NCBI GenBank assembly: GCA_030524545.1
Contig: JAUNGM010000011.1
Coordinates: 59,446 to 123,445, forward strand
Origin: Eubacteriales bacterium
GTDB taxonomy: Bacteria; Bacillota; Clostridia; Lachnospirales; Lachnospiraceae
DNA length: 64,000 nucleotides
Direction of reading: 5' to 3'
Shown: piece after piece, positions 20,712 through 40,206 of the stretch
Layout of the letters: every line of letters begins with the position of its first letter
How positions within the stretch are numbered: the first letter of the stretch is position 1
Translations under genes and position numbers: made by a program
The notes under the pieces: generated by a model
Database searches by the model: none
What the model was told of the DNA's origin: nothing
The model's input: the letters and a program-made list of their open reading frames with translations, nothing else

Positions 20712-20877
20712 GGCTTATTCCTCCTTTGCCGATTGCGGTTGCCCAATGCGTTTTATCCTTTACGCGCATATACGCCTGTGATTGCCTTTTTTATCTTTAT
20801 TTTTTTATCCCAACTTAGTTTTATGGGAAATTGAGAAACCGAAACCCGAAAGCCCTTATTCTGCAAGATGTCAGCAC

Positions 20878-20916: not shown

Positions 20917-20928
20917 GCAGGCAACCTC

Positions 20929-23404: not shown

Positions 23405-23416
23405 AACAGACACCCC

Positions 23417-25354: not shown

Positions 25355-25617
25355 GCATACGACCTCCCCGATTTGATTTTGCTGACCATTTTCCTTGAAA
25401 TCCCCATTTTCTCCGCAATTTCATATGGGTGGATGCCGCCAGCAAGCATCCTTTTGATCTGAAGAACCTCGTCATATTTCAGTTCCAGCACCTTCATCGG
25501 GAGTCGCCGTACAGATCCGCCCCGGCACTTCATATAGCGCGGCATACAGCGGATGCTGTCTTGGTCGCTGATCTGGTACCTTCCTTCCATTCCTTCTATG
25601 TCTTTCCACCGTTCCAA
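25342..25617 (-). CDS. NUMOD4-HTH DNA-binding protein
   Basis: From TTG 25617 (GGAGG 8 bases upstream) the 91-residue protein begins ERWKDIEGMEGRYQIS, a NUMOD4 motif. It ends with an HTH (HPYEIAEKMGISRKMVSKIKSGRSY). NUMOD4 modules normally direct homing HNH endonucleases; no nuclease core is present, so this is a regulator or the remnant of a homing enzyme. Confidence 0.7.
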   Translation of the reverse strand: MERWKDIEGMEGRYQISDQDSIRCMPRYMKCRGGSVRRLPMKVLELKYDEVLQIKRMLAGGIHPYEIAEKMGISRKMVSKIKSGRSYAWLN

Positions 25618-25672
25618 TCCCAAAACCTCCTTTATGTATAGGGCGGCGTTCCTGCCGCCCGTCCCGTTTCCT

Positions 25673-26218
25673 TTAGGAGAGGAAATCATCCTCGCCGTCA
25701 TCCACCGCTTCAAACTCATCCTTCGCATTGGCTCTGGAGCCCAGCGGCTCCCCGTCCCTTAATTTCTGGACATTGCCAAGCCCGGCTGCAATACCCTTGT
25801 TACCGTTGGAATTATAGGCATAAAAGGTAATGGAAACCCTGCCGTAGCATCCGCTGTACACCTCGCTCTGGTCAAGGATCGGCTGCACCTGTCTGTCCAC
25901 GATCTGCGGCGCCTGTTTGGAATTGGCGTTTAAGAACATACAGCCTCCGTATGCCTCATCCTCCGACCTGTCCGTATCGCCATCCCTCAGCGGCGTTTTC
26001 AAGTTAGTAGGGATTTTGCCTCCCCATTTCCCTTTGCCTTCCTCCTTCGCAGTTTCGATAGCCTTTTTGATCTTGGCAATCGTATCCTTATCCTTCTTGT
26101 CGATGATGCAGGAGACCGAATACTTCGGCTCGCTGCCATTGACGGAATCCGGCTCCCACAAATGTGCATAGGAAAGCCTGCATGGAACAATTACTTTGGT
26201 TCTGTTTTCTGTACTCAT
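25673..26218 (-). CDS. DUF2815 phage ssDNA-binding protein
   Basis: From ATG 26218 (GGAGG 8 bases upstream) the 181-residue protein matches DUF2815, an OB-fold family related to T7 gp2.5: KVIVPCRLSYAHLWEP, KYSVSCIIDKKD, GGCMFLNANSKQAPQIVD and YSGCYGRVSITFYAY. The acidic tail (EFEAVDDGEDDF) is typical of ssDNA-binding proteins that recruit polymerases. It lies between the DUF2800 nuclease and the polymerase. Confidence 0.85.
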   Translation of the reverse strand: MSTENRTKVIVPCRLSYAHLWEPDSVNGSEPKYSVSCIIDKKDKDTIAKIKKAIETAKEEGKGKWGGKIPTNLKTPLRDGDTDRSEDEAYGGCMFLNANSKQAPQIVDRQVQPILDQSEVYSGCYGRVSITFYAYNSNGNKGIAAGLGNVQKLRDGEPLGSRANAKDEFEAVDDGEDDFLS

Positions 26219-26221
26219 CAC

Positions 26222-27349
26222 TTAATCCTCCTTAAAATCCGCTTCTGCGGTTGATACATTGACTGCTTCCCGTTTATCTGATTCCGGCACCAGCGTGACC
26301 TTGCCTTCCGGCTTATACACAAAGGCTCCGAGAATCTCAGCAAACTTCTTTTTTCCCATCAGCTTCTCCATCTCGGTAATGCCGATCAGGGTAGATTTGA
26401 AGATATCCGTGTACCCGGCTGCCTTTGCCGCATTCGCCGCGTCCTCCTCATCCGTATATCTGCGGTTGCTCCGTCCAAGCACCAGCTTGAATCCCGGCCA
26501 TTTCTTATGGTTCACAACCGCTTCATTCTGTGCATAGGTGTAAATTTCCTCCGCCCATTTTTTCAAAGCGTCCGCTTTGATAAGCACCTCTGCGATTTCT
26601 TCTTCCGACAGAAGCGGGGCTTCCCGAAACTCCATCTGCGCCAGTCTCAGATACTCATTCGCCCTCTCCCGGCAGGTAAACCGCGCTTTGCAGAACCTAC
26701 AGTGTTCTCCGGCAGCGTATTCGCCTTCCCCGGCAAGGGCCTTTTTCGCCCCGGTTTCAAATACCTCGCTTCCCCATTTCAGTAATGCTTCTGCGGAAAT
26801 CTCCCATGTAGAGAGGTGCTGCAGCCTCGGCTGCACGATGGTCAGTTCCACCGTGTCGATATCATACAGGCAGCACAGCATATCGAGGACTCCAAGTCCA
26901 TAAATCATAAGCTGTACATTCTCTTCCGCTTCCACCATGACGCCCTTGCCGAGTTTCAAATCGATAATATGGATTTTCCGGGAATCCACCACCACAAGGT
27001 CCGCCGTTCCGAAGCACCCTTCCACACGGCTGCTCAAATCCACCTTCAGCTCCACGCCGACATACGAATCAGGGCAGTCCCTCTTTGCTTCCTCAATCTG
27101 GCTGACACCGTAAGCGACATAATCATCCACTGCCTCCATCAGCTCATCCGTGTAATAATCCGATACCGGGCGCTTCGTCCTTTTCTTCAGGTGCTTCTTG
27201 ATCAGGTATTCCGCCATCTCATGTCCGGCAGTCCCCTCCGCCGCATACGGGGACTGCTCATCTGCAAACTGCTCTTCCAGCCGGAGTGACGGCGGGCAGC
27301 TTAAGTAACGCTTGCCGGACGAGGGGGAAAACCTTGCATGTGCGCCCAT
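26222..27349 (-). CDS. DUF2800 RecB/Cas4-like nuclease
   Basis: The 375-residue protein begins GAHARFSPSSGKRYLSCPPS and matches DUF2800. It has a PD-(D/E)xK core with GTADLVVVDS and IHIIDLKLGKGV (about residue 135), and a C-terminal Cys cluster CRFCKARFTC that, with the N-terminal Cys, could hold an iron-sulfur cluster as in Cas4/AddB. It likely acts as an exonuclease in phage recombination with the adjacent ssDNA-binding protein. Start and upstream stop share one base. Confidence 0.87.
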   Translation of the reverse strand: MGAHARFSPSSGKRYLSCPPSLRLEEQFADEQSPYAAEGTAGHEMAEYLIKKHLKKRTKRPVSDYYTDELMEAVDDYVAYGVSQIEEAKRDCPDSYVGVELKVDLSSRVEGCFGTADLVVVDSRKIHIIDLKLGKGVMVEAEENVQLMIYGLGVLDMLCCLYDIDTVELTIVQPRLQHLSTWEISAEALLKWGSEVFETGAKKALAGEGEYAAGEHCRFCKARFTCRERANEYLRLAQMEFREAPLLSEEEIAEVLIKADALKKWAEEIYTYAQNEAVVNHKKWPGFKLVLGRSNRRYTDEEDAANAAKAAGYTDIFKSTLIGITEMEKLMGKKKFAEILGAFVYKPEGKVTLVPESDKREAVNVSTAEADFKED

Positions 27350-27678
27350 CAGAGTGCCTGCGCTTTCTGGTACAGCTCACTGAGCTTCTCATCCGGCACA
27401 TCCGACAGCTTGCTGTATCCAAACTCGGTAATGAGGCTCTTGACCTCAGAAGTCTTTCCAGCCCTTGATTTCTCCGTCAGAAATGCACGGACTGTTTTCC
27501 TGTCAATCTGCGGCTCATCCTTTTCCTTCCATTTGGGAGACGCCGCTTCCGCAGCTTCCTTCTTTTCAGGTGCTTTCCCTGCATCCTCCGGCAAGCCCTT
27601 ACTCTCCGAAATCATCTGCCGGATTCCGGCGGCAATCAGTTCATAGCCTTCCGCCATCTTCATTAATCCTTCATTCAT
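27349..27678 (-). CDS. Hypothetical early phage protein
   Basis: This 109-residue charged protein has an N-terminal helix, a Lys/Glu-rich linker (residues 25-60) and a C-terminal helical domain (VRAFLTEKSRAGKTSEVKSL, FGYSKLSDVPDE) that recurs in small phage proteins next to recombination genes. The function is unknown; context suggests a recombination accessory role. Confidence 0.6.
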   Translation of the reverse strand: MNEGLMKMAEGYELIAAGIRQMISESKGLPEDAGKAPEKKEAAEAASPKWKEKDEPQIDRKTVRAFLTEKSRAGKTSEVKSLITEFGYSKLSDVPDEKLSELYQKAQAL

Positions 27679-27693
27679 AAATCTTCTCCTCCT

Positions 27694-28089
27694 TTATTCC
27701 AGTCTCAGCCCCTGAACCGCCATGCGGTATTCCGGCGCGGCACGTTCATCAATCGGAAGCGTCCTAACATTTACTGCATTGAATCTGTCATCATAAAGCC
27801 GGACAGGTTTCTTTTTCTTTCTGGCATGGTCAAGCTCAAACTTCATGCCTTCCGTAATGTCGAATCCGAACACATACACCTCATCACAGGAATCCATCAG
27901 TTCCAAACCCATCTCAATACCGATCATTCTCTCGTTGGGATTATTCTCATCGAGGAATGTTGGAAAATAGAGATGCGGGGCCACAGGGATTCTCCCTGTT
28001 CCAATGACAATCTTCCCGTAGAATTTTGCCTTTTTCATGTTCTCCTCGATGTTTCCCCGATATGGGGAGCAGATAAAAACTTTTCTCAT
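27694..28089 (-). CDS. DUF4406/DUF7768-like nucleotide-binding protein
   Basis: The 131-residue protein starts RKVFICSPYRGNIEENMKKA and continues with PVAPHLYFPTFLDEN, and GMKFELDHARKKKKPV, the layout of nucleoside 2-deoxyribosyltransferase-like (Rossmannoid) domains common in phages. A catalytic Glu lies in EGMKFEL. It may act on nucleotides; the substrate is unknown. Confidence 0.7.
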   Translation of the reverse strand: MRKVFICSPYRGNIEENMKKAKFYGKIVIGTGRIPVAPHLYFPTFLDENNPNERMIGIEMGLELMDSCDEVYVFGFDITEGMKFELDHARKKKKPVRLYDDRFNAVNVRTLPIDERAAPEYRMAVQGLRLE

Positions 28090-28177
28090 AATAAAATCAT
28101 CCTTTCACATTCGGCTCTCATGGCCGTGGGGTACTCGTCAATAAACATCTGACCGCCGGATCGTCATCCGGCTTGTC

Positions 28178-28513
28178 CTAGACAGAAGGAACATATCTGT
28201 TAGAGCCGTATTCACGGAGCATCTGATCCAACACCCTTTTCTGTTCATCATCAGCTTTATCCATAAGCTGTTCCAAAACGGAAATCTGCTCTTGTGACAG
28301 AATATTCTTATGTGGGTGATACCAGTCGGCGATACGGACGCCGCCTCCGTTACCTCTTGAAGTTTCCAGAGGATACTCAGCCGTGAGTACAAGAATGTCA
28401 TTTCGGATTGTCCTGTCCGTCACTCCAAGTTCGGCTGCTAAGACCTGCATATTTTCCTGTCTTCGCGCGACCATGATTCTCATGATCTCCGCCCTTCTTT
28501 CATTTGCACTCAC
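28178..28513 (-). CDS. Winged-helix (HTH_11/DeoR-like) early regulator
   Basis: From GTG 28513 (AGGAGG 9 bases upstream) the 111-residue protein has an N-terminal winged helix (RMIMVARRQENMQVLAAELGVTD-type core, then DRTIRNDILVLTAEYPLE and wing GNGGGVRI) and a helical C-terminus. It is the first gene of the prophage early operon and its probable regulator. Immediately after it lies a perfect GCCGGAT/ATCCGGC hairpin (28155-28172). Confidence 0.75.
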   Translation of the reverse strand: MSANERRAEIMRIMVARRQENMQVLAAELGVTDRTIRNDILVLTAEYPLETSRGNGGGVRIADWYHPHKNILSQEQISVLEQLMDKADDEQKRVLDQMLREYGSNRYVPSV

Positions 28514-29205: not shown

Positions 29206-29515
29206 CTCATTCACCTCTCTTTCATCAAAATTTACTCTGTAAGAAAAACTGATTTTTTGCATTCGCAAATTTTTCTATGTGTTTGCCAAATGAAAATTTA
29301 CAAAAAATGTAGAAATTGCGTTTCGAGTGTAATATAATATTTTTATACACTCTGTCCTTTCCCAAACGTCAAGTTCAGAATTTGACTGCTATTCCCTATC
29401 AGCCCGTCTTACATATACCAGTTTAGCAAAGCTGTCTTTTTGAAAAGCGGACTGGACGGACGCTCTCGGACACTCTCGGACAAAGGTAAAAATTTAGACA
29501 GGAGGCAAATAGCGC
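29206..29515. promoter_or_regulatory. Divergent intergenic region with TATAAT inside an inverted repeat
   Basis: This 310-base AT-rich gap separates the tiny minus-strand gene from the plus-strand defence operon. GAGTGTA (29325-29331) and TACACTC (29346-29352) form a 7-bp inverted repeat enclosing TATAAT (about 29333-29338), which suggests a promoter with an operator over its -10 box. The -35 (TAGAAA, 17 bases upstream) is weak. The XRE protein encoded in the operon is a candidate ligand. Confidence 0.45.
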
Positions 29516-30448
29516 ATGACGTTTTCTGAATATGCTTCAAATCTTTCGCCGTTCATTTCATTCGGCAAATCTGAACATGAATATTTCACAGAACTAGTCG
29601 GCAACTTCGTACAAGATGCCGCTATGGACTCCTGCAAACTGTTGAAGCGAAAGCCTGACACAAAATACCGCTACATAAAAGGTGACCGCACAATTCAGCC
29701 CAAGGACGCGCAGTACCTTTACGACCATCGTGACAAAAGCAAATTCTCGAATTGGGTATGGGAAAGAATGGACGAGTCCGACTCCTACGACAATGTCGTA
29801 GCATGGCTGGATAGCCTTAGCATTGCCAGCGATGATCCTTCAACCGCCTGTGCTGATATATTCGAGAGCATAGTCTTGGACATCATCAACTCTACTCCTA
29901 CCACCCAAGCAGCACAGGAAGCAGAGATTGATTTAAAGCTGATTGATGACATCCAGAAAAAAATAAAGTCGCTACCACGACCGACAAATGTGTCGGTTCC
30001 GAAGGTAGCGACTCAAGATGAGCAAAAATATATTGATGAACTGTATCTGGCATACGGCGATGCAGAGGGGATGGATCCTTTTTCGGAAGATGACCTTTCC
30101 TCATTTCCTGATTACTCTGATGACTTGGAAGACCGCCGCATTGATTTCTACGCTGCAGAAACAATTCGGCGTGGTGTTTTAGAGTTAAAAGGGAGTAGCC
30201 TGACAGGGCAATTCGATGTATTAAAAGATGAAACCTATAACGGTGTAAAGGACACAGCAAGGAGAACACACACAAATGGTTATGAACGTATGCTTGCTGT
30301 CATGGAGCAAGCAGTTATCGCCCCGGTCACAAATTATATTCTCAGTGCCTCACCTTATTGGATAAGCGGAAAAATCAAAAAAGGTGTATGTCACCACCTC
30401 GTTAATGATGGAAAACTGACATGGATAAGGAGAAGAAAGAAGCAATGA
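29516..30448 (+). CDS. ABC-3C system protein with C-terminal ABC-3C domain
   Basis: The 310-residue protein has two domains. The N-terminal one (residues 1-130) includes the pattern KDAQYLYDHRDKSKFSNWV and ADIFESIVLDIIN. The C-terminal one (210-310) has RRIDFYAAETIRRG, FDVLKDETYNGV, YERMLAVMEQA and KKGVCHHLVNDGKLTW, typical of the CTD that links effectors to ABC-three-component systems. I see no catalytic effector domain, unlike most such proteins. AGGAGG lies 10 bases before the ATG; the end overlaps the next gene by 28 bases. It is predicted to take part in phage defence. Confidence 0.65.
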   Translation: MTFSEYASNLSPFISFGKSEHEYFTELVGNFVQDAAMDSCKLLKRKPDTKYRYIKGDRTIQPKDAQYLYDHRDKSKFSNWVWERMDESDSYDNVVAWLDSLSIASDDPSTACADIFESIVLDIINSTPTTQAAQEAEIDLKLIDDIQKKIKSLPRPTNVSVPKVATQDEQKYIDELYLAYGDAEGMDPFSEDDLSSFPDYSDDLEDRRIDFYAAETIRRGVLELKGSSLTGQFDVLKDETYNGVKDTARRTHTNGYERMLAVMEQAVIAPVTNYILSASPYWISGKIKKGVCHHLVNDGKLTWIRRRKKQ

Positions 30449-30906
30449 ATGAATCAGCCATCGGCTCTACCTTTGAAATATCTCTCCGTATCCTTCTGAT
30501 GCTGAATGAACTCGCGCCTGCGAAATTAGACGAACAGCAAATAGGAGCGATTGATTTTATAGCTGTTTATGCCGCGGATTTTGGATTGATGGACGAGAAC
30601 CTTCACGGATATAGCAACTACAGATATAGCGAGTTTCCTGCAAGAAAGCAGATGGTTTCTTCGGCTTTGAAAAATCTCGTGTTGGATGGTTATGTTAGGC
30701 TATATCTTACTTCGAGTGGATACAGATACTCACTTCTGGAAGTAGGTAAAATGATATGCACTAAACTTACAAGTGGGTATGCCAAGGAATATATTCTTGC
30801 AGTTCAATCCGTGACCGATAGATTTGATAAAGCAAATGCGGCTGCCATGTTGAAGGAAATCAACAGGCTCACTATTCAATCATTGCAGGAGGTCAAACAT
30901 GAATAG
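30421..30906 (+). CDS. ABC-3C middle component
   Basis: The 161-residue protein matches the middle component of ABC-three-component systems: a winged-helix-like fold with STFEISLRILLMLNEL, LDEQQIGAIDFIAVYAADFG, RKQMVSSALKNLVLDGYV and SGYRYSLLEVGK. It is thought to bridge the ATPase and the effector protein. It overlaps both neighbours (28 and 8 bases), so the three products are probably made in fixed ratio. Confidence 0.8.
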   Translation: MDKEKKEAMNESAIGSTFEISLRILLMLNELAPAKLDEQQIGAIDFIAVYAADFGLMDENLHGYSNYRYSEFPARKQMVSSALKNLVLDGYVRLYLTSSGYRYSLLEVGKMICTKLTSGYAKEYILAVQSVTDRFDKANAAAMLKEINRLTIQSLQEVKHE

Positions 30907-32740
30907 GTTCTATATTGATAAACTTACCGTGTCCGGCGGCGGACACAAAACAACAGTAATTGACTTTAAGCCGGGTTTGAATTTTATTCTTGGTCCCTCC
31001 AATACCGGAAAGAGCCTTGTGATGGACTGCCTGGATTATGCATTTGGCTTTACTCCCAAAAAGAATCGTCCTTCAAAAATCGTTGACAACAACTACAGAT
31101 ATGAGCGGATTACACTTCACTTGATAACAGGTAATGGGACAGTCATTCTCGAACGCAAAATCGGCGATACTAAAATTGCTGTCAGCGGTACCGATCCAAC
31201 GGTGGAGCATGGCACTTATAGTGTAGGTCATAAAGCCAAAAAGAATATCAACGCCGTTTATCTTCATCTGCTTGGAATTGATGAGGTTCATTCTGTTCGT
31301 TCAGCTGAAAAGGGATCAAAAACACAGGACTTAACTTGGAGAAGTATGCTCCATCTCTTCTTTATACGACAGGCAGATGTTGCAAGAGAAAGTTCTGCAT
31401 TGTTGGCTCCTGGAAGCGTGGGACATACGGCTTCAGCTGCAGTGTTGCTATACCTTTTAACCGGGCAGGATGCAAACAATCTCGCCGCAGATGAAGACCC
31501 GAAAATCAGTGAGGCGAAGAAAAAAGCCCTCATTGGCTATATTCAGGAAAAGGTCGATGAATTTACAAGAAGGCGTGAAACGTTGGAGGAAACACTCTCA
31601 TCCTCCAATATTACAGACCCTCGCTCAAATGTTGAACAGGTTAGAAAAGAAATCGCAGAATTACAAGCACAAGTGGATGCTGCTACCCGAGACAGTCAGC
31701 AACTAATGTCACAGATTTATGAATTGAATGGTAAACTTTCCGAATCCAGGACAGTCGGACATAATTTTGCTGTTCTTCGCCAGCAATACCAATCTGACAT
31801 AAGACGGATTGGTTTCATTGTTGACGGCGCATCAACCGTCTCGCCGGTTCGCAAAAAAGTCAAATGTCCTATCTGCGGAGAAGAAACCGAGCGCGTACAG
31901 GATACCTCATTTATTGACGCATCTGCTGCGGAACTTGAAAAAATAAAAAGTCATCTGTCAGAGCTAAGTGATGCACAGCGTAGCGTAGAACATCAACAGG
32001 AAACTATTATTGCTACGATTCGCACATTGGAAGAAAAGAAAAAAACTGTTGATACTCTGATTTCCGAACAACTACAACCGAGATTATCTGTGTTTGAAGA
32101 GGAATTGGAGCAACAACTAAGCCTGATACGCCTCACAAGCGAATTAGAGATAGTACGTCAAAATGAAACTCAGTATAGAAGCGAGCTGTTCAACAAGGAA
32201 ACTGAAGAGACATCGGAACTCTCCAAACACAACATTTATGAGGATTACGATTATGATATCATCCACGGTTTTGAAGAAAAGCTAAGGGGAATCTTGCAGG
32301 CATCTAAAATTGGCGGTGCTGCTTCTGCAAGGCTCAATATGGAAAACTTTGATATTGAAATTGGTGGTTTCAAGAAGTCCGTTTCAATGGGCGGAGGTTT
32401 CTGCGGAATACTGAACACAATAACTACACTTGCAATGAGCGGATACCTTATCGATCTTGATAGAAATGCCCCTGGCTTCTATGCCGTAGACTCTTCACTG
32501 ACTCAATTATCAGAGGCAGAGCATAAAGAACAAAGCGATACGATTAAGCAAAATTTCATAGAGTACCTTATCTCTCATGCTCACGAACGCCAAGTAATTA
32601 TTGTGGAGCAAACAAAGCGTATGCCGTTTGTCCCAGATGAGAGCGATGAGAACGGTGTTCATGTAATTCGGTTCTCCAGAAACAAAGAAGAAGGACGATA
32701 TGGTTTTTTGAACGAGGTTTATAACCCGGAGGATCAGTAA
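30899..32740 (+). CDS. ABC-3C SMC/Rad50-like ATPase (DUF3732 type)
   Basis: The 613-residue ATPase has an N-terminal Walker A LGPSNTGKSLV (residues 31-41), a long coiled coil (about 200-440), a Cys pair CPICGEETE near residue 323 that could form a zinc hook, and a C-terminal lobe with SMGGGFCGILNT (signature-like), GFYAVDSSLTQL (Walker B region) and VIIVEQTKRMP. It is the DNA- or damage-sensing motor of an ABC-3C conflict system. All motifs look intact. Confidence 0.85.
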   Translation: MNRFYIDKLTVSGGGHKTTVIDFKPGLNFILGPSNTGKSLVMDCLDYAFGFTPKKNRPSKIVDNNYRYERITLHLITGNGTVILERKIGDTKIAVSGTDPTVEHGTYSVGHKAKKNINAVYLHLLGIDEVHSVRSAEKGSKTQDLTWRSMLHLFFIRQADVARESSALLAPGSVGHTASAAVLLYLLTGQDANNLAADEDPKISEAKKKALIGYIQEKVDEFTRRRETLEETLSSSNITDPRSNVEQVRKEIAELQAQVDAATRDSQQLMSQIYELNGKLSESRTVGHNFAVLRQQYQSDIRRIGFIVDGASTVSPVRKKVKCPICGEETERVQDTSFIDASAAELEKIKSHLSELSDAQRSVEHQQETIIATIRTLEEKKKTVDTLISEQLQPRLSVFEEELEQQLSLIRLTSELEIVRQNETQYRSELFNKETEETSELSKHNIYEDYDYDIIHGFEEKLRGILQASKIGGAASARLNMENFDIEIGGFKKSVSMGGGFCGILNTITTLAMSGYLIDLDRNAPGFYAVDSSLTQLSEAEHKEQSDTIKQNFIEYLISHAHERQVIIVEQTKRMPFVPDESDENGVHVIRFSRNKEEGRYGFLNEVYNPEDQ

Positions 32741-32775
32741 TCCCCAATATCTACATGCAAAAGCAGGAGGCAAAT

Positions 32776-32979
32776 ATGCGTATAAGTTACAATAAGTTAT
32801 GGAAAATGCTGATAGATAAGAACATGAACAAACATGATCTTGCAGAGAAAAGCGGTGTCAGTTCAGCTTCCATTGCCAAACTAAGCAAAGGATCGAATAT
32901 CACCACAGATGTACTTCTGAAAATCTGTGAGGCTATGGACTGCACATTAGAGGATATTATGGAAACGGTAAAGGATTGA
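32776..32979 (+). CDS. XRE-family small regulator
   Basis: From ATG 32776 (GGAGG 5 bases upstream) the 67-residue protein is a single Cro/CI-type HTH: RISYNKLWKMLIDKNM, KHDLAEKSGVSSASIAKLSK, and VLLKICEAMDCTLEDIME. It sits 35 bases after the ATPase gene and 17 bases before the glycosylase in the same operon, and probably autoregulates it. Confidence 0.8.
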   Translation: MRISYNKLWKMLIDKNMNKHDLAEKSGVSSASIAKLSKGSNITTDVLLKICEAMDCTLEDIMETVKD

Positions 32980-32996
32980 CAAAGGGAGGTGGTATC

Positions 32997-33647
32997 TTGC
33001 CAAATGTCGTAACACTCGATATGGATCACCCCGCTGTCCAATACCTATGCAAAAAAGATAAACGTCTGGCAAAGGTCATCCGTATGGTCGGTCCCATAAC
33101 CTATGTTCCGCATGACGAAAGCATTTACTCCTTTTTAGTGCATGAAATCATCGAGCAAATGCTATCTGTAAAAGCAGGTCAGAAAATATATAAAAGGCTT
33201 GAAGATTTATGCGATGGCGATGTGACTCCTGAAAAAGTCAATGCACTTTCAGATGATGAGATACGTGGAACTGGAACATCATCTTCAAAAGTCAAATGTA
33301 TCCGTGGTGTCACCGAAGCCGTAATATGTGGAGATCTGGATTTCGATAAAATGCATTCTCTGTCTGACGAGGAAGTCATGCTACACCTTACCAAGTTTCA
33401 TGGCATAGGCAAATGGACTGCAAAAATGTTCTTAATGTTTGTTCTTGATCGTCCAGATGTTCTCCCCGTTGAGGATGGTGCTTTTTTACAAACTTATCGC
33501 TGGGCATATAAGACGGACGATTGCAGCGAGGATGCTATCTATAAAAAATGCCGGAAGTGGAAACCTTACTCATCTATTGCATCACGTTTTTTCTATAAGG
33601 CGTTAGATGCAGGAATGACAAAGGAAGAATTTCACCTATTCAAATAA
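32997..33647 (+). CDS. AlkA-like HhH-GPD DNA glycosylase
   Basis: From TTG 32997 (GGGAGG 8 bases upstream) the 216-residue protein has the HhH-GPD core: helix-hairpin-helix LTKFHGIGKWTAKMF (131-145) and the catalytic Asp in VLPVEDGAFLQTY (Asp160). The N-terminal part lacks the usual AlkA barrel extension. DNA-3-methyladenine glycosylase II-type enzymes remove alkylated or modified bases. Inside a defence operon it may instead excise modified bases from invading DNA; that is inference. There is no iron-sulfur cluster motif. The gene lies 14 bases before the restriction endonuclease gene. Confidence 0.8.
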   Translation: MPNVVTLDMDHPAVQYLCKKDKRLAKVIRMVGPITYVPHDESIYSFLVHEIIEQMLSVKAGQKIYKRLEDLCDGDVTPEKVNALSDDEIRGTGTSSSKVKCIRGVTEAVICGDLDFDKMHSLSDEEVMLHLTKFHGIGKWTAKMFLMFVLDRPDVLPVEDGAFLQTYRWAYKTDDCSEDAIYKKCRKWKPYSSIASRFFYKALDAGMTKEEFHLFK

Positions 33648-33661
33648 GCACGGAGGATAAA

Positions 33662-35320
33662 ATGGCTACAAAAGGAAATAAACGAACAAATTTGGAGGCT
33701 AACGAAGCCTTTCTTCAATATGAAGAAGAAATTGTTAATCATCCTGCATATGCCGGGATGCCGGACTTGCGCCACGATGACGGAACAATTCAATGGGAAA
33801 CTCCATCAAATAGAGGTGCAGGCGTTTTTCAATTTTCTCACGACAAGCGTTATCAATGGTGGTTAGAAAAGGCTGCCGAAATAGGAATCAGTACAGATGA
33901 AGATAAATGGATTAGTAAGGTTGCCAAAACTATCCATCCTACTAAGCTTCATCCTTGTAAAGTCTGCGGTCGTGTTATGGATATTCGCTATTGCTATTTG
34001 TCAACCAATTTTATGAAAAGGGTTCAGAAACTCTCTTTTTATGATAGTTCTGTAGAAATGGAAGAAGTAACTCACATTCTGGATTTTGTTACATCCCTCG
34101 TTGATACATATGGAGATGTGGCTTACGATGCTTTACCGGGCTTACTCAAATGTACACAGGTGAAAGAAATTCCTGATTTGCCCCATGACCTTTCTGCATG
34201 GACATCATGGATAGAGCAAAGCTATATTCCCAAAGAACCAAGTATGCTTAGCCCTGGTGCAATGTCCAATGCTCCTGATCGACTTGACGGTTTTCATACT
34301 TTTAATCGCTGCTGTCGTTCCACAGCAGACAAAGGTCGTTCAAAAGAAAATCTCGCATCATATTCAACTGACAGGAGAGCTTTTGAAAATTGGAGTGATG
34401 GTAACTGGATCACAGCCAATAAGCTGATGGGCTTTATAAACTCTAATCCTGGCATGAAAAAGGAACATTGCGCAAACGAAGGAAACGGCGGACATCATCC
34501 GCGTCCATGTAGTGCAGATCATATCGGTCCGATATCCCTTGGCTTCTGCCATAGACCGGAGTTTCAGGTCCTTTGTAAGCCTTGTAACAGCGCAAAGAAT
34601 AACAGGATGTATTATTCTGATGTTCTCCACTTGATTGAAGTTGAAAAAGCCGGAGAAACTGTTGCAACCTGGTACGCTGATTCGATTTGGCAAAAATGTA
34701 AAGGAAAGGTCACCGATAAGGAATCTGCGTTGAGACTTAGCCGTGTGATGCGTGATAATCGCAATGTTGCGATGATGCTTTTGGCTGACTTTATTGACAG
34801 AAACGAATTTCTTTTTCTCTTTACACTCCTCAATTTGGAGTATGCTGACTATGACTACGACATCATTCCTGGATCGACAAAAATCAATCACCAGATTGTA
34901 ACTGTGGATTTTTCGAGGGAAGCAAGCACTTTGAGATATGTCAGTATTCAGAAAACGAGAAAAATACGAGTCGCTTTTTCTTCGCTTTCCGAATATGCAA
35001 AGAAAGAAAACCGCAATGGATACACATATACTAATGCAAAGATTGAGTCGCTGAAGAAACAAGCATTCAGCATTCTGTCCAATATCAACAGCAAAATGAA
35101 AAAGCTGAATGAGACTCTTATCGTGGCTCTTTCTGATGAAGAGCGAATTGATGCTGAAATCGAAGCATTTTTGTCTACTGTAGATTATACCGCGCTAAAG
35201 AACATGCGAGAATTTATTGAAGTAAAAGAACTGCTCAAACAGATTATGGAGTTAGTCGCTCAAGAACTATCCTCCAATTGGGACGATCCTCGTTATTCAA
35301 GAGAAACTGCTGACGAATAA
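33662..35320 (+). CDS. Type IIS restriction endonuclease, Alw26I/Eco31I/Esp3I family
   Basis: The 552-residue protein resembles the Alw26I/Eco31I/Esp3I endonucleases. The N-terminal half has a Cys motif HPCKVCGR (about residue 100) and the middle has an HNH-type site in ADHIGPISLGFCHRP with LCKPCNSAKNNR (about residues 283-315), matching the single HNH active site shown for Eco31I. Known members read GTCTC-containing sites and cut outside them. The specificity here is unknown. It ends the six-gene operon and is convergent with its methyltransferase. Confidence 0.82.
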   Translation: MATKGNKRTNLEANEAFLQYEEEIVNHPAYAGMPDLRHDDGTIQWETPSNRGAGVFQFSHDKRYQWWLEKAAEIGISTDEDKWISKVAKTIHPTKLHPCKVCGRVMDIRYCYLSTNFMKRVQKLSFYDSSVEMEEVTHILDFVTSLVDTYGDVAYDALPGLLKCTQVKEIPDLPHDLSAWTSWIEQSYIPKEPSMLSPGAMSNAPDRLDGFHTFNRCCRSTADKGRSKENLASYSTDRRAFENWSDGNWITANKLMGFINSNPGMKKEHCANEGNGGHHPRPCSADHIGPISLGFCHRPEFQVLCKPCNSAKNNRMYYSDVLHLIEVEKAGETVATWYADSIWQKCKGKVTDKESALRLSRVMRDNRNVAMMLLADFIDRNEFLFLFTLLNLEYADYDYDIIPGSTKINHQIVTVDFSREASTLRYVSIQKTRKIRVAFSSLSEYAKKENRNGYTYTNAKIESLKKQAFSILSNINSKMKKLNETLIVALSDEERIDAEIEAFLSTVDYTALKNMREFIEVKELLKQIMELVAQELSSNWDDPRYSRETADE

Positions 35321-35365
35321 AAAATAGCCGACCATCTGTTAATCGTAGGTGGTCGACTTATTTTA
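35321..35365. terminator. Bidirectional terminator between endonuclease and methyltransferase
   Basis: CGACCA (35329-35334) pairs with TGGTCG (35350-35355), flanked by AAAATA on one side and TTATTTTAT on the other, so it can terminate both convergent transcripts. Confidence 0.6.
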
Positions 35366-38182
35366 TCAGAGGTAACTGTCAAGGTATTCGTCCACAGTTA
35401 TTTCTCCTCGCATAAATTTTTGATAAGGATTTGTCGCAGGAAAACGATAATTATATCCACTTCCATCTTCTCCTGGTTGAAGCGGCGGCAAATCGCCAAT
35501 TGCGTCCTCGACACCTATTACAGAGGGGAGGAGCGATAATTGCCCATCCTTGGGAACGCAGGATATTTCCTTCATACTAAAGCCTTGAACAAGATTAGCA
35601 TCCCCGCCAATGATTATTACACGATCTCTACGTTGCGGAACTCCGAAGTTAGCTGCGCTAACCTGGTTTACTTTGATTTCTGTAACACATTCTTTCAACT
35701 CGGTCTTTATCATCTCAAAGAATTGTCCTTTATCTAAATTGAGAATTCCACGAACATTCTCAAATACAAAGCCATCCGGTCTGATTGCCTTGACTATGCT
35801 GGCATAGGACTTAAATAACCAGTTGCGCATATCTTCAGCACCTCGCCGTGTATTCGCGGTCGAGAATCCTTGACAAGGCGGTCCTCCAAGAACAAATAGA
35901 GGAAGGTTCGGATTTGCTTTCTTTGCAGCTACCGCCGCATCCACAATCGCATCATGTACCTCTTGACTATTAATATCACCAACAATTGCTTCTCCACCAA
36001 GATTTCGCTTGTGTGTTTCTACTGCGTAGTTGTCGATATCATTCCCAATTATCGGAGTCCAACCAGCCCAAATAAAGCCCAATGCAAGTCCTCCTGCACC
36101 GCAGAAAAGGTCAACAAACTGCCCCTTGAAAGGAATGTTTTTAGCAATCTGATAGGCAAGCAGTGGTGGTACAGCGTTTCCAATCTGATTATTTATCGCC
36201 CCAAGCGACCCGATAAACTCAAACGAATCTGGGAAGCTCTGAAAACGCGCTGCTTCTCGTTGCGATATTGTCCGGTTCTGGTCGTAATGCATATTACATC
36301 CATTTCCTGGTCGGTTGAAGTAAGTGTTAATAGTATATGCAGGCATATCCGGACGAAGCCTTCCATAATATGTAGATCGACTTCCTTTCCCGGCTTTATA
36401 ACTTTCTCGGATTTGTGCGATTCTTTGCGATGGCACACTGTCCGGGATATTCTTCCAGTTACCTCCTGGCGGAACACACTTTATTACTTGCATATCCAAT
36501 TCACTCAACGAAGATGCGTAGTGATTGAAAATCATGGTTTTCTTTTCTCCATCCTGACTTTTTTCACGATACTGTCTAACAATGTTTACTCGTTTTTCAT
36601 TATCCAGCTTGAACGAATCTACAATGATTTCATATTCATCAGCTGAGAGATTGTATAGATGTGCGACCGCCAATTCAATAGCATCTTCAACATCTTGACC
36701 TGCCAATTGCTTGTCCACTAATTCTATGATGTTCATATCAACACACGGTCGAGGAACACGAATCTGCTTCACTATCCCTGCTGACACATGATTGGATACC
36801 AACATACTCCTTGCTTGATATTCAAATATCATCGAATTCATGATCGCAAGCAACATTTTGAGGCTTGAAAGTGCGACTTCATCTCCATACACCACGCCGA
36901 GAGAATTTCCACAAATGAATCCGGGTGGCAACAATGTGGCTTTGATTCGCCGTACTTGAGAGTCACGTGACACATCTCGCCACACGACCTTGCTCATGAA
37001 CGAACTTTGCGGAGGAATCACCATCTCCTCATTCAAGAATAATTGATCGCTCATAAAAGAATACCTGTCTACCATATAGCCTTTTGCGAATTCAATTTTA
37101 CCAGTATGTAACAGTTTTTCTTTTACTCTTGTTTCGTCCAATTCACGTGTAAAGTGCAATCCAGTTTCATTGCAGAATTCATCCGTCGAAGGCAACTGCT
37201 CAAGATACATCATTATAGGTATGGCCTCTATTCCAGTTTTTAAAGGAATGCAATAACCTGTCCGTTTGATATATTCAAAGACGGCCTTTTCTATTTTTTT
37301 CTCTTTATACTTTCTCTTATCGCTATAAATCCTAACGCTAAGACTTTGGTCAGTTTCACCGCCTTTAACCACTATGGTGATGCTTGAAATATCTGCACTA
37401 CCATAGAGCTTTAATTCCGCAGGGTAGTAAGAAACATTAATGACTTTATAGTTCTCAAAAATCCAAACTCTGAGTTTGCTTGAAACTTGGTCATTAAGCA
37501 ACGAGGCAGGAGAAACAATGCCACAAAATCCGTCTGATTTTATTAGTCTAAGGGCTACTTCAGTTCCACAACGTGCAAGGTTTGTCCCCCATTTTCCAAA
37601 TTTTGAAGAGGGTTGCGAAATTACAAACGCCTCCTTCATGTATGAATCATACTGCTCTATTGCATTTCGATAGCCAACCATAGCTTCTTCGCCATTACTC
37701 TTGCTGAAGAGCTTTTGAGGCTTTAACAGACTCCACGGAGGATTTGTAACACATATATCGTATTTGCCACGAACAGCATTATACTCTACAAAAGCATCTG
37801 CCTGACGCGCATCAATCTCAAACCTCAATCCAACAGTTTCGCAAAACTGTGCTATCTCACTTTTTGCCGTATTCACAGCATTCCCATCTATGTCCCAAAC
37901 TGAGATGAACAACCGATCAGAAGATAATTTCCCTGATTTGTGTAATTCTGAAAGCAAAGAAATAATCAGCCTTCCATCTCCGCAAAACGGATCAATAATG
38001 TGTAATTCCGAAGAAAAGGTGTCGTACATATAATGCTGACTTAACACCTGCATCATGCTCGTTGCTATATCATAATCGGTATAGAATTTTCCGAGAAGTT
38101 TTTCATCCTCGAAATCCGTCTGCGTAAACTCATCAACGAACTGATAATATTCTTCACTTAATTCATGTGGAGTTTTAATCAT
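35366..38182 (-). CDS. Fused m6A + circularly permuted m5C DNA methyltransferase
   Basis: The 938-residue protein has an N-terminal adenine methyltransferase (DPFCGDGRLIISLL near residue 67, catalytic TNPPWSLL near 160) followed by a long specificity part. The C-terminal cytosine-5 enzyme has a changed motif order: IX-X (REAARFQSFPDSFEF, IGNAVPP, about 635-670) precede motif I FVDLFCGAGGLALGF (about 686), IV GGPPCQGFS (about 765), VI FVFENVRG and VIII PQRRDRV. It would protect both strands of an asymmetric type IIS site, A on one and C on the other, as known for this family. It pairs with the convergent endonuclease. Confidence 0.88.
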   Translation of the reverse strand: MIKTPHELSEEYYQFVDEFTQTDFEDEKLLGKFYTDYDIATSMMQVLSQHYMYDTFSSELHIIDPFCGDGRLIISLLSELHKSGKLSSDRLFISVWDIDGNAVNTAKSEIAQFCETVGLRFEIDARQADAFVEYNAVRGKYDICVTNPPWSLLKPQKLFSKSNGEEAMVGYRNAIEQYDSYMKEAFVISQPSSKFGKWGTNLARCGTEVALRLIKSDGFCGIVSPASLLNDQVSSKLRVWIFENYKVINVSYYPAELKLYGSADISSITIVVKGGETDQSLSVRIYSDKRKYKEKKIEKAVFEYIKRTGYCIPLKTGIEAIPIMMYLEQLPSTDEFCNETGLHFTRELDETRVKEKLLHTGKIEFAKGYMVDRYSFMSDQLFLNEEMVIPPQSSFMSKVVWRDVSRDSQVRRIKATLLPPGFICGNSLGVVYGDEVALSSLKMLLAIMNSMIFEYQARSMLVSNHVSAGIVKQIRVPRPCVDMNIIELVDKQLAGQDVEDAIELAVAHLYNLSADEYEIIVDSFKLDNEKRVNIVRQYREKSQDGEKKTMIFNHYASSLSELDMQVIKCVPPGGNWKNIPDSVPSQRIAQIRESYKAGKGSRSTYYGRLRPDMPAYTINTYFNRPGNGCNMHYDQNRTISQREAARFQSFPDSFEFIGSLGAINNQIGNAVPPLLAYQIAKNIPFKGQFVDLFCGAGGLALGFIWAGWTPIIGNDIDNYAVETHKRNLGGEAIVGDINSQEVHDAIVDAAVAAKKANPNLPLFVLGGPPCQGFSTANTRRGAEDMRNWLFKSYASIVKAIRPDGFVFENVRGILNLDKGQFFEMIKTELKECVTEIKVNQVSAANFGVPQRRDRVIIIGGDANLVQGFSMKEISCVPKDGQLSLLPSVIGVEDAIGDLPPLQPGEDGSGYNYRFPATNPYQKFMRGEITVDEYLDSYL

Positions 38183-38213
38183 TTCTCAATTCCTCCCAGG
38201 CATAGTAAGCACA

Positions 38214-38408
38214 TCAGTCCATTGCACTTTTTCCACTGGATACCCAATTGTCTAATTCTGAGCATTTGAATTTCCACTGTTTGCCTATTTTATGTGCGGG
38301 TATGTCCTTGCCTTTCCTAATCCAATCGCGGATTGTTCCGGGCTTAACTCCCAGATATTCCGCAGCTTCATCTATGCCTACCCATTTGTCATTTCCGATT
38401 TCTCCCAT
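38214..38408 (-). CDS. Excisionase-type HTH_17 DNA-binding protein
   Basis: From ATG 38408 (GAGGTG 6 bases upstream) the 64-residue protein is a MerR-like HTH_17: WVGIDEAAEYLGVKPGTIRDWI, KGKDIPAHKIGKQWKFK and ELDNWVSSGK. It lies 31 bases before the methyltransferase gene on the same strand, a position used by R-M controller proteins. It could also be a recombination directionality factor, but no integrase adjoins. Confidence 0.8.
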   Translation of the reverse strand: MGEIGNDKWVGIDEAAEYLGVKPGTIRDWIRKGKDIPAHKIGKQWKFKCSELDNWVSSGKSAMD

Positions 38409-38838
38409 TCCAGCACCTCCGAACAAACAAAATATAGCAAGTTTATTATAGCAAGTTTTGATGCAGTTTTCAATAGATTTCCTATTGTTTTATGTTGTTT
38501 TTTGTAATTTATAAGCATTTAATATATCACTCTGGAAGGTAGAAAAGTCAAGGAGATTCAGCGATATTTGATACAATCGACAATCTGCACACCATAAATT
38601 ATCGCAAAATGTATTTATCCGTTTTATGAAGCCTTTATTTATAAAAATGGCATCACATCTTCAATTAATGAAAATGTAATGCCACTATTTTATTTTTGCG
38701 AAAACATATCCTTTCGCCAAAATGTATATCTTCCGTTCCCCACAGCCTATCCCCTGGGTAAATCAATTCCCTCATCCCCATTCTGCGGAAACTGAAACAC
38801 ACAACCATTTTCGCCCCAAATCGGCAGAAACCTTTGAT
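38409..38838. other. Intergenic junction of the defence island and core genes
   Basis: An AT-rich stretch of 430 bases without a supported gene. It contains the rlmCD terminator (38648-38684) and probably the promoter of the methyltransferase unit. I found no tRNA, integrase remnant or clear direct repeat marking an attachment site. Confidence 0.5.
38648..38684 (-). terminator. Terminator of the rlmCD operon
   Basis: TGGCAT...ATGCCA with inner ACAT/ATGT and TTC/GAA pairs forms a 15-bp stem with two mismatches, followed on the minus strand by TTTTTAT; the other flank is also T-rich in its direction. Confidence 0.65.
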
Positions 38839-40206
38839 TTACCGGGCTTTTTTCGTCAGCAGAGCGACTGTCTCCACATGCACCGTATTCCCAAACTGAT
38901 CAACCGGGCAAACCTTCTCTAACTCATATCCCTTCCCGCACAAATACTTCAGATCCCTTGCCAGTGTCGCGCTGTCGCAGCTGACATACACCACCCTCTT
39001 CGGCTGCATCTTCAGGATTGTCTCGAGCAGCACCTCATCGCAGCCTTTTCTTGGCGGGTCAACCACGATTACGTCGGCGTAAACACCATGTTTCTCGTAC
39101 TCCCGCGGAAGGACTTCTTCGGCCTTGCCGACAAAAAATTCTACATTTTGCAATCCATTCAGTTCTGCATTCCGCCGTGCATCCTCAATTGCAGCAGGCA
39201 CGATTTCCACTCCGCGGACAAACTTAGCCTGCTGTGCCAAAAACAGAGAAATGGTACCGATTCCGCAATAAAGATCCCATACAGTTTCCTCGCCGTGAAG
39301 ATTCGCATATTCCAGAGCCTTGGCATATAATTTACCGGTCTGAAGGGGATTGACCTGGTAAAAGGACAGAGGTGAAATCTGATAGGAAACTTCACCGATT
39401 TTGTCCGTAATATAAGTCTGGCCCCAGAGAAGCTTTAATTCCTCTCCCAGAATCACATTGCTCCTGCTGCGATTGACATTCAGCGTGATGCTGGTCATTC
39501 CCGGAATCTCCTGGAGAGCCTCCACCAGCTTTTCACTGTGCGGAAGCCTTGCACCATTGGCAATCACGCATACCATCACTTCCCCGGTAAAGAATCCATA
39601 ACGAATCAGAATATGACGCACAAGTCCTTTCCCTGTTGCTTCCTCATAAGGCTCCACACCGTATTTTTCCATATAGGCGATTACCCGATCCAGAACCTCT
39701 TTATTCTGGGAAACACCCAGGGCACAGTCTCTGTTCTCAATAATATTGTGGGTTCTTCCTGCATAAAATCCGGTGATGATACGGCCTTCTTTATTCCGTC
39801 CGACCGGAAACTGTGCTTTATTGCGGTAATGATACGGCTCCTCCATCCCAATGATCGGCTCCATGGGAATCTCTGTAAATCCTCCGATCCGTTCCAGATG
39901 CCCCCGCACTTTGGCTTCTTTAAACGCAAGCTGCTGTTCATAAGAAAGTGCCTGAATCTGGCAGCCGCCGCACTGGCGTGCATAAGGGCATCTCGGCTCC
40001 ACACGGTATGGGGATGGTTTCAGGATTTCCATAAGTCTTCCGTAGCCATAATTCTTCTTTGCTTTCATGATCTTCGCGCGGACCGTGTCACCGATCACAG
40101 CGTCTTTCACAAAGACGGTGAAGCCATCAGCTTTACCGATGCCTTCACCGTCAATTCCGCAATCTTCTATATCTAACGTCACAATGTCGTTTTTACGAAA
40201 TTCCAT
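38839..40206 (-). CDS. rlmCD: 23S rRNA (uracil-C5)-methyltransferase RlmCD/RumA family
   Basis: The 455-residue protein has an N-terminal TRAM domain (residues 1-60), an iron-sulfur Cys set CPYARQCGGCQIQ (Cys73, 79, 82, with another near 161), AdoMet motif DLYCGIGTISLF, VVDPPRKGCDE and the catalytic Cys in YVSCDSATLARDL. It methylates U in 23S rRNA; in Firmicutes a single enzyme often does both positions 747 and 1939. Exact sites cannot be read from sequence. It is the last gene of a three-gene operon. Confidence 0.88.
   Translation of the reverse strand: MEFRKNDIVTLDIEDCGIDGEGIGKADGFTVFVKDAVIGDTVRAKIMKAKKNYGYGRLMEILKPSPYRVEPRCPYARQCGGCQIQALSYEQQLAFKEAKVRGHLERIGGFTEIPMEPIIGMEEPYHYRNKAQFPVGRNKEGRIITGFYAGRTHNIIENRDCALGVSQNKEVLDRVIAYMEKYGVEPYEEATGKGLVRHILIRYGFFTGEVMVCVIANGARLPHSEKLVEALQEIPGMTSITLNVNRSRSNVILGEELKLLWGQTYITDKIGEVSYQISPLSFYQVNPLQTGKLYAKALEYANLHGEETVWDLYCGIGTISLFLAQQAKFVRGVEIVPAAIEDARRNAELNGLQNVEFFVGKAEEVLPREYEKHGVYADVIVVDPPRKGCDEVLLETILKMQPKRVVYVSCDSATLARDLKYLCGKGYELEKVCPVDQFGNTVHVETVALLTKKAR

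Follow-up and report, generated by a model that had tools for sequence, protein, structure and literature searches.

A recurrent modular cassette uniting a Lamassu module, an AlkA-like DNA glycosylase and Alw26I-type restriction-modification in a prophage of a Eubacteriales bacterium

The window analysed here is a stretch of 64,000 nt from a Eubacteriales bacterium (GCA_030524545.1, contig JAUNGM010000011.1, positions 59,446-123,445 of the forward strand). All eight genes of the locus were located where a preliminary description had placed them: six plus-strand genes that overlap or are separated by at most 35 bp, followed by a convergent fused methyltransferase (MTase) and its HTH gene. Gene starts were refined from ribosome-binding sites and by comparison with relatives.

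29516..30448, plus strand: LmuA, Lamassu/ABC-3C effector protein with CTD6 (CTD6 1.6e-40; LmuA 2.8e-101)
30445..30906, plus strand: LmuC, ABC-3C middle component MC2 (MC2 2.9e-38; LmuC 1.1e-54)
30899..32740, plus strand: LmuB, Rad50/SMC-like ATPase (LmuB 1.4e-218)
32776..32979, plus strand: XRE/HTH_26 regulator, 67 aa; gap of 35 bp after LmuB
32997..33647, plus strand: HhH-GPD DNA glycosylase, AlkA/DrAlkA2-like, 216 aa; TTG start; gap of 17 bp after XRE
33662..35320, plus strand: Alw26I/Eco31I/Esp3I-type type IIS restriction endonuclease (REase) (PF09665 584.5 bits); gap of 14 bp after the glycosylase
35366..38182, minus strand: fused MTase, N-terminal m6A (Alw26I-type) and C-terminal m5C domain; convergent, 45 bp from the REase
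38214..38408 (or start 38426), minus strand: HTH_17 (MAD1/excisionase-like) regulator, upstream of the MTase

The first three genes, joined by ATGA overlaps (LmuA/LmuC and LmuC/LmuB), were recognized as Lamassu (ABC-3C) by the PADLOC models, which bears out the ABC-3C identity proposed earlier. The module comprises the LmuB ATPase, the LmuC middle component, and an LmuA with the ABC-3C C-terminal domain; a Walker A motif (GPSNTGKS) and a zinc-hook motif (CPICG) can be read in LmuB. The N-terminus of LmuA was modelled with modest confidence (pLDDT 71) as a small helical domain. Residues 1-131 gave no match in the Foldseek and VIA-align lists, nor did a sequence search of the PDB bring up any hit to E 1. 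Part of this N-terminal domain recurs in the protein that accompanies the PDC-S53 helicase; in the one such protein scanned, from L062, a weak similarity to HamA (E 0.0028) was seen.

The restriction-modification (R-M) genes could be assigned with curated profiles, which likewise uphold the proposed Alw26I-type type IIS identity. The REase scored 520.8 bits with TIGR02986 (cut-off 443.85) and thus belongs to the Alw26I family; the cognate m6A MTase (TIGR02987, 365.1 bits, cut-off 353.5) and an m5C MTase (TIGR00675, dcm, 179.2 bits, cut-off 100.65) are both present. The m6A-m5C fusion was also found in relatives, and the two MTases are separate genes in L057. Alw26I-type enzymes recognize GTCTC or a longer form. 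The HTH_17 gene scored 59 bits with NF047737 (MADS1), below the cut-off of 80, and 52.5 bits with TIGR01764 (cut-off 28.8). Alw26I terms were not found in PMC12898733.

The glycosylase has the HhH-GPD fold with the catalytic Asp, and no Pfam family other than PF00730 (HhH-GPD) matched it up to E 1. The nearest structures are 2h56 (TM-score 0.86) and DrAlkA2 (2yg8). MIG/MutY/Nth-type T:G glycosylases carry a C-terminal four-cysteine Fe-S cluster; by reading, this cluster is not in the window's glycosylase, and the best structures are AlkA-type. Together with its relatives, the glycosylase groups in a clade of its own, separated from the generic AlkA-like proteins with an SH-aLRT of 100. At 24 family-conserved positions, a set of 25 generic AlkA-like proteins has a different commonest residue; at position 55, for instance, 73/73 family members have Met and 25/25 of the generic proteins have Gln. 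The catalytic Asp160 is kept in the family; the residues around it differ from those of generic AlkA-like proteins. According to the part of PMC5128194 consulted, DrAlkA2 removes 3-methylcytosine, 1-methyladenine, 3meA and 7meG.

The candidate transcription signals of the locus are as follows.

29310..29338, plus strand: candidate sigma-70-like promoter upstream of the six-gene operon, TAGAAA-17-TATAAT (10/12 matches); the number of such sites is not above chance
~29422-29430: TTTAGCAAA element, nearer to the operon, found by eye and similar in close relatives
29448..29481, plus strand: four CGGAC pentamers with a 9-10 bp period, directly before the first gene
35329..35355: hairpin terminator between the convergent operons (REase/MTase), 11 pairs, the longest of 11 sites
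38445..38473, minus strand: promoter-like site for the HTH_17-MTase unit, TTGAAA-17-TATAAT, with TG before the second hexamer (11/12 matches)

The gaps between the six genes are too small for a conventional promoter to fit outside the coding sequence. The earlier proposal of shared transcription is supported, in that the six genes appear to form one transcription unit. The MTase is a predicted transcription unit of its own. Since 18 promoter-like sites were found at the locus and 22.9 were expected, such matches inside the genes mean little; terminator-like sites numbered 11 (7.6 expected). The CGGAC array appears operator- or leader-like. At least four CGGAC units were present in 15 of 20 loci tested, and fewer in L064, L106, L120 and L141; the test in L091 was void, as the coordinate used there was arbitrary. 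The chances of the 15 arrays, calculated against resampled sequence that was not that of their own locus, ranged from 0.5% to 7.25%, so that single arrays are not all convincing. By eye, the array classes and the XRE classes appear to be matched. L046 and L047 likewise have arrays ahead of LmuACB, of three and four units respectively, with no XRE-like ORF found in either; a role of the XRE protein as reader of the array is accordingly not claimed. Neither of these two LmuACB loci has a glycosylase or any searched R-M family.

The setting of the locus, which was absent from the preliminary description, was examined from the flanking genes.

1..28513, minus strand: prophage genes, including the major head protein, portal, terminase, DNA helicase/primase, DNA polymerase and exonuclease (PHROGs)
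within 1..28513, minus strand: the prophage exonuclease, labelled DUF2800
38839..40206, minus strand: host gene beside the cassette, which we take to be rlmD-like (23S rRNA uracil methyltransferase)

Judged by gene content, the locus belongs to the cargo of a prophage and lies at its early-gene end. The prophage region also encodes a presumed ssDNA-binding-type protein, which we take to be DUF2815; its relative in L062 is annotated as ssDNA binding. In L048, an integrase and an endolysin lie further left. Relatives of the rlmD-like gene were present in the stretch examined of L057, L076, L082, L097, L119, L123, L129 and L144. Within the 104 kb examined, no exact repeat longer than 17 bp that could mark an attachment site is shared between the rlmD side and the remainder, and the prophage ends are estimates. 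Two of the related loci (L061 and L062) are phage records. Phage early genes were found in the stretch examined of 23/69 family rows, in the same place as here.

The linkage is not confined to one genome, as the same eight-gene block recurs in two others. The block of L073 shares 78-92% protein identity and 82% DNA identity over 9.5 kb with the window, and its LmuA is in two pieces. In L076, the proteins from XRE to HTH_17 are 76-86% identical and the Lmu proteins 68-82%, with 74% DNA identity over 8.1 kb; this contig starts within LmuA, so that no more than the final 28 residues of that protein are present. Other relatives retain the gene order (defence module, XRE, glycosylase, REase, facing the MTase) and exchange the modules. 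The defence module may be Lamassu, PDC-S53 or PDC-S06, and the R-M may be Alw26I, SacI, Eco47II, Bsp6I or others, as labelled in both slots by profiles built on single scanned proteins; the XRE and the glycosylase remain. XRE was found in 23/69 family rows, including 12 of the 13 rows with LmuB; where it occurs, it usually lies immediately before the glycosylase gene. These comparisons support a recurrent modular cassette. The components also occur apart. For example, Alw26I-type R-M lies without a nearby glycosylase in L057, L058 and L063, all with full flanks, and in L060 and L042 the usual glycosylase place is empty, with contig ends close by; L059 is uninformative, as its contig ends within the REase. 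The glycosylase is therefore not obligatory for Alw26I-type R-M.

The neighbours of the glycosylase were counted in 81 candidate loci. Eight without a glycosylase ORF of at least 180 aa (L101, L130-L135, L138) and four duplicates (L100, L139, L143, L145) were dropped, leaving 69 family rows; 17 of these were short of flank, and 52 loci had at least 1 kb upstream and at least 4 kb downstream. The controls were 25 of 26 generic AlkA-like matches (L027 was not enlarged), of which six were short of flank, leaving 19. An m5C MTase was near the glycosylase in 36/52 loci, a count to be read with the mutual relatedness of the family rows, and in 0/19 controls. On a rough reading, made with no computed count, the m5C excess is weak by kind of R-M, unlike by locus. 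Five of the 52 loci have amino-MTases only: L084, L090, L111 and L120, all by Pfam, and L146 (via L069 on the same contig). By Pfam, three more (L094, L128, L133) also have only an amino-MTase, but are short of flank or have a truncated glycosylase. No amino-MTase was found in the 25 controls by a motif and two profiles. The remaining 11/52 loci have neither kind of MTase, and no XRE, phage marker or known defence module. Over all rows, 39/69 have an m5C MTase, 21 of them without a phage marker; in L113, L118, L119, L136 and L137, which have no phage marker, the glycosylase is beside m5C genes in other orders.

Other repair genes were also searched. The AlkB family (PF13532) was found in 0/18 carrier genomes and 3/14 control genomes; as evidence for the repair of MTase-made damage by the glycosylase this is weak, because bacteria of this kind may often lack AlkB. 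In L137 a Vsr gene comes immediately after the glycosylase, and in L110 (identical to L071) the two are 6.7 kb apart; these were the hits of a phmmer scan of the loci with one Vsr sequence, which diverged Vsr genes may escape. Somewhere in the genome, Vsr is present in 8/18 carriers, and none was found in the window's genome. The adjacency in L137 suggests that the two enzymes do different jobs. Strict repair of deaminated 5-methylcytosine (Vsr/MIG-like) as the sole role of the glycosylase is weakened by this Vsr and by the loci with amino-MTases only.

The most plausible account, which we hold tentatively, is a temperate-phage cargo cassette of exchangeable modules in a fixed order, in which the glycosylase removes damage made by the MTase. 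In this cassette, a defence module (here Lamassu), the XRE, the AlkA-like glycosylase and the REase face one or more MTases and the small HTH gene. Its anatomy, prophage setting, recurrence and module exchange are read from the sequences, and from here on we infer functional roles. The type IIS R-M would be the first line against superinfecting DNA; Lamassu would be the second, abortive line, triggered by structure or damage. The glycosylase would functionally be on the R-M side and remove base damage caused by the MTase, so that the carrier tolerates the R-M. The lesion would most likely be N3-methylcytosine or another N-methyl base; the alternative is thymine that arises by deamination of 5-methylcytosine. 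Co-transcription would mean that the parts are expressed together, but would not make them one biochemical machine. In the part of PMC9246332 consulted, eukaryotic C5-MTases make 3-methylcytosine as a by-product; its production by bacterial C5-MTases was not found in the portions of the literature searched. A bolder form of this account, which is rather unlikely, is that the glycosylase adds a third, new component to type II R-M systems. It would be derived from AlkA, have a re-shaped active site and remove N3-methylcytosine (or a related lesion) left by the cognate C5-MTase, as a counterpart, in bacteria and phages, of the eukaryotic DNMT-ALKB2 pairing; temperate phages would package it along with an exchangeable cassette of Lamassu and R-M governed by a single control element. 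Several observations speak against the repair reading: in the window and most phage cassettes, the glycosylase is encoded in the operon of the REase rather than in that of the MTase; the loci with amino-MTases only, or with no MTase, offer it no C5-MTase; and Alw26I-type R-M lives without it.

The preliminary description had favoured one integrated multi-layer system, in which the MTase marks self, the REase cuts, the glycosylase attacks modified phage bases and Lamassu reacts to damage. The six genes without promoter-sized gaps, the repeat array in front, the whole block kept in L073 and L076, and the encoding of the glycosylase together with the REase are consistent with this, and phage-defence glycosylases exist (Brig1/Brig3, PMC13160076). 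However, this reading is very unlikely, as the parts occur without one another and no sign of phage-base specificity was seen in the glycosylase; moreover, the Brig enzymes are thought, in the part of that source consulted, to be derived from uracil glycosylases, whereas the window's glycosylase is AlkA-type. The claim of fusion into one system is not supported, because relatives swap the defence module and the R-M with the order kept; the MTase is also, by prediction, separately transcribed. For an attack on modified-base phage DNA no positive evidence was obtained, the relatives being AlkA/DrAlkA2-type alkyl-base glycosylases with C5-MTases as the commonest partner. With modest confidence, we prefer repair of MTase-made damage to an attack on phage DNA.

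That the glycosylase is a stand-alone anti-phage effector, which excises the modified bases of competing phages escaping R-M and whose R-M link reflects complementary defence as with type IV enzymes, is unlikely. The constant position of the glycosylase gene among the REase-operon genes of defence cassettes, the altered residues near the catalytic Asp and the association with amino-MTase R-M as well would fit such a role. The 11 loci with no MTase, XRE, phage marker or known defence module fit a repair enzyme better, the m5C excess by locus speaks against an attacker, and the nearest characterized enzyme acts on simple alkyl lesions in the part of its description consulted. It is also unlikely that the XRE and the glycosylase are hitch-hikers, that is, ordinary phage accessory genes in a defence-insertion hot spot with no functional link to R-M or Lamassu. 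Both remain in the phage cassettes while their neighbours change, and Alw26I R-M occupies the same slot without them in L057; however, adjacency to R-M without a phage marker and in other orders (L074, L113, L118, L119, L136, L137, L149) and the absence of m5C MTases from 19/19 controls speak against this reading.

Lamassu, type II R-M and base-excision repair are usually studied apart, and are here united in a fixed, recurrent phage cassette; among the papers listed by a literature search, none described this combination as judged by titles and the beginnings of abstracts. The neighbours of the glycosylase clade suggest that cytosine methylation might have a repair cost in bacteria, as in eukaryotes. 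We know of no AlkA-type defence glycosylase so far; if the glycosylase were an attacker, it would be the first.

Like Brig1 and Brig3, of which Brig3 acts on 5hmC in the part of PMC13160076 consulted, the window's enzyme is a DNA glycosylase in a defence operon, but it is HhH-GPD/AlkA-type. Compared with known Lamassu systems, LmuA differs in its N-terminal effector domain, which is small and helical and gave no clear match, and the operon continues into the glycosylase and the REase. The R-M resembles Alw26I/Eco31I/Esp3I in its REase and m6A MTase, both above curated cut-offs, and in having an m5C MTase; it differs in that the m6A and m5C MTases are fused in one 938-aa protein and the REase operon includes the XRE and the glycosylase. 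The glycosylase shares fold and catalytic Asp with the AlkA/DrAlkA2-type enzymes, but forms a separate clade that has its own conserved residues, is linked to R-M and has phages among its carriers. The MIG-type T:G glycosylase travels with m5C R-M, and like Vsr and MIG the window's glycosylase is a putative repair gene travelling with a C5-methyltransferase; however, it is not Vsr, lacks the Fe-S cysteines by reading, and is not simply a Vsr replacement, because Vsr adjoins it in L137 and lies 6.7 kb from it in L110. The defence hot spots of P2/P4-like phages similarly carry exchangeable defence modules as cargo, at one constant position in the phage and with different modules in related phages; here, the XRE-glycosylase pair stands between two variable slots.

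The six genes on the plus strand and the pair that converges on them, reported in the preliminary description, were borne out on checking, and gene spacing supports the operon structure proposed there. The first three genes belong to Lamassu: the CTD protein is LmuA (PADLOC E-value 2.8e-101), the middle component LmuC (1.1e-54) and the ATPase LmuB (1.4e-218), with Pfam matches to CTD6 and MC2; a review takes the Lamassu superfamily to include ABC-3C (PMC10586767). The REase and the m6A half of the fused MTase scored above the curated cut-offs of the Alw26I/Eco31I/Esp3I family; the remaining half of the MTase is a C5-cytosine (m5C) methyltransferase. ATGA overlaps join LmuA to LmuC and LmuC to LmuB; the remaining gaps among the six genes are 35, 17 and 14 bp. 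We read the cassette as two putative transcription units, because the convergent REase and MTase are separated by a hairpin of 11 pairs and the HTH_17-MTase pair has a promoter-like site in front of it. The features around the cassette are as follows.

Left part of the window: phage head, portal, terminase, helicase/primase, DNA polymerase and exonuclease genes
29448-29481: four CGGAC pentamers with a 9-10 bp period, upstream of the first cassette gene

Beyond the left end of the window, the contig carries a phage endolysin gene and an integrase gene, the latter with a second recombinase-like ORF (by reading) next to it. The cassette occupies the early-gene end of the prophage and adjoins an rlmD-like host gene; together with the phage genes on the left, this places the prophage roughly at contig positions 47,000-98,000, the ends being approximate. 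The same place is used in relatives of this prophage. The Christensenellales phage NatCom_6392 (PV036419.1, locus L061) carries LmuACB-XRE-HhH near its DNA polymerase gene, with 67-82% identity; the Terrisporobacter phage TPDSL_ph1 (PP197246.1, locus L062; source stated as culture supernatant) carries a helicase module, XRE, HhH and two genes facing two DNA methyltransferases. Among 69 glycosylase-family rows, 23 had phage early genes within the stretch fetched, and the family as a whole is therefore not confined to phages. In another genome (L057:1850-18614), this prophage slot, again close to an rlmD-like gene, is occupied by an Alw26I REase that faces separate m5C and m6A MTases; XRE and glycosylase were not found in that slot. 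Two more methyltransferase-like prophage proteins, of m5C and ParB/N6 type by reading only, seem to be encoded at 14591-16982 of the window, and through them the prophage may carry DNA methylation activities beyond the cassette's own.

Of 20 loci tested, 15 have such an array of at least four units in the corresponding position, in some of them with PDC-S53 replacing Lamassu, and the units include GGTAG, GGAA and others besides CGGAC. For each of the 15 arrays, no more than 2.25% of 400 random windows drawn from its own locus gave a match, and 0.5-7.25% of resampled sequences did. The array also precedes LmuACB in loci where no XRE was found, so the reader may be XRE, the N-terminal domain of LmuA or some other protein. 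Tandem pentamers of the CGGAC or GGTAG class, with a period of 9-10 bp, were seen directly before the first cassette gene, be it of Lamassu or PDC-S53, in the window and in the comparison loci L061, L062, L073, L077-L079, L082, L092, L129, L133 and L148.

Genome contigs and viral contigs were scanned with an alignment of 11 glycosylase family members, which gave 66 and 13 loci, respectively. The entire set, LmuACB-XRE-HhH-Alw26I REase facing the fused MTase and HTH_17 gene, is present in the window, in an Oscillospiraceae MAG (L073; LmuA split in two pieces) and in a Lachnospiraceae MAG (L076; LmuA incomplete, the contig beginning inside the gene), so the proposed linkage does recur in other genomes. 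The exact combination is rare: in an order-level sample of 295 genomes, none but the window's own yielded the Alw26I-type REase and five yielded LmuA, while across the phylum 4 of 398 genomes had PF09665, own genome counted in both. Among the 69 family rows, LmuB is nearby in 13 (a fragment in L119), the PDC-S53 helicase in six, PDC-S06 in five and the Alw26I REase in nine. The REase slot after the glycosylase is elsewhere filled by the SacI, Eco47II and Bsp6I families, by the EcoRV family in L111, or by c42, a family of about 369 aa without assigned class. These partners are scattered over the glycosylase tree, which indicates that the modules are exchanged. The glycosylase itself is dispensable for Alw26I R-M, because it is missing from three loci with full flanks (L057, L058, L063) and, close to the ends of their contigs, L060 and L042 have nothing at its usual place. 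The idea of a single multi-layer system is thus not supported; the locus is a genuine phage cassette of ordinary parts, rare yet recurrent, and the point of interest is the R-M-linked glycosylase clade.

Two occupants of the exchangeable positions deserve mention. The c42 family stands beside m5C MTases (L061:9694-10800, L064:10682-11788, L082, L097, L099 and others), gave no Pfam, PADLOC or PHROGs match for the one member scanned (L064), and is a candidate new restriction endonuclease. A two-gene module (L062:5134-8781, L141:6002-9639) encodes a PDC-S53 helicase of about 920 aa and a 280-aa protein with an N-terminus like LmuA's. In L062 the latter protein is weakly similar to HamA (E 0.0028), and the module may therefore be Hachiman-like and have a domain in common with Lamassu.

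The window glycosylase is an AlkA-type HhH-GPD protein. Its nearest solved structures, by sequence and by predicted model, are 2h56 and 2yg8 (model pLDDT 93; TM-score 0.86 against 2h56). Set against 10 generic AlkA-like controls, its relatives group together as a single clade (SH-aLRT 100). At 24 positions a residue is conserved in at least 90% of 73 family rows and the commonest residue of 25 controls is different, including Tyr36, Met55, Lys143, Pro157, Glu159, Phe163, Gln165, Trp169, Trp188, Arg197 and Tyr200 (216-aa numbering, printed position minus 8); Gln54, Trp140 and the catalytic Asp160 are common to both groups. A changed substrate is plausible, because several family-specific positions fall, along the sequence, in the stretch around the catalytic Asp.

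Neighbours were counted in the 52 family loci whose flanks reach at least 1 kb upstream and 4 kb downstream, an m5C MTase being sought within 9 kb; the rows are related to one another. An m5C MTase was present in 36 loci, only an amino-MTase (Pfam-checked) in five and neither in 11. No m5C MTase was found in 19 controls with the same flank, and no amino-MTase in 25 controls (motif or two profiles only). In these 11 loci, XRE, phage markers and known slot-A modules (the defence module before XRE) were likewise not seen, and the family therefore has stand-alone members. By a rough reading, kinds of R-M without m5C seem about as many as those with it. No phage marker was seen in 21 of the 39 m5C rows among all 69, and the adjacency there takes other orders, namely HhH-m5C (L113, L118, L119), m5C-gene-HhH (L136) and m5C-gene-HhH-Vsr (L137). 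A functional link between glycosylase and R-M is therefore likelier than hitch-hiking, but the relatedness of the rows, the balance of R-M kinds and the Alw26I loci lacking the glycosylase weigh against it. That the C5-methyltransferases here keep company with base-excision enzymes is further suggested by a second glycosylase: one (OGG_N and HhH-GPD, Pfam) lies directly downstream of the m5C MTase at L064:13333-14148, and others were found by profile in L078, L080, L086 and L140. Single-strand runs at L113:7697-13954 and L118:9917-14932 comprise an HhH glycosylase, a 643-aa m5C protein, one or two proteins of about 429 aa and a second m5C MTase; no phage marker was seen around them.

We infer that the glycosylase would repair base damage produced by the methyltransferase. 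This is because DrAlkA2 was reported to act on 1-methyladenine and 3-methylcytosine as well as 3meA and 7meG (PMC5128194), eukaryotic C5-methyltransferases were described as making 3-methylcytosine as a by-product and co-evolving with ALKB2 (PMC9246332), and the AlkB family gave no match in any of the 18 carrier genomes searched (matches in 3 of 14 control genomes). The main objection is that the window glycosylase is encoded with the REase, as expected of an enzyme that attacks DNA. Such a role, however, has no homology support, since the authors who described Brig1 and Brig3 consider them derived from uracil glycosylases (PMC13160076) and the window enzyme is of the AlkA type. Lamassu would serve as an abortive line sensing DNA structures, by analogy with the systems treated in the review (PMC10586767).
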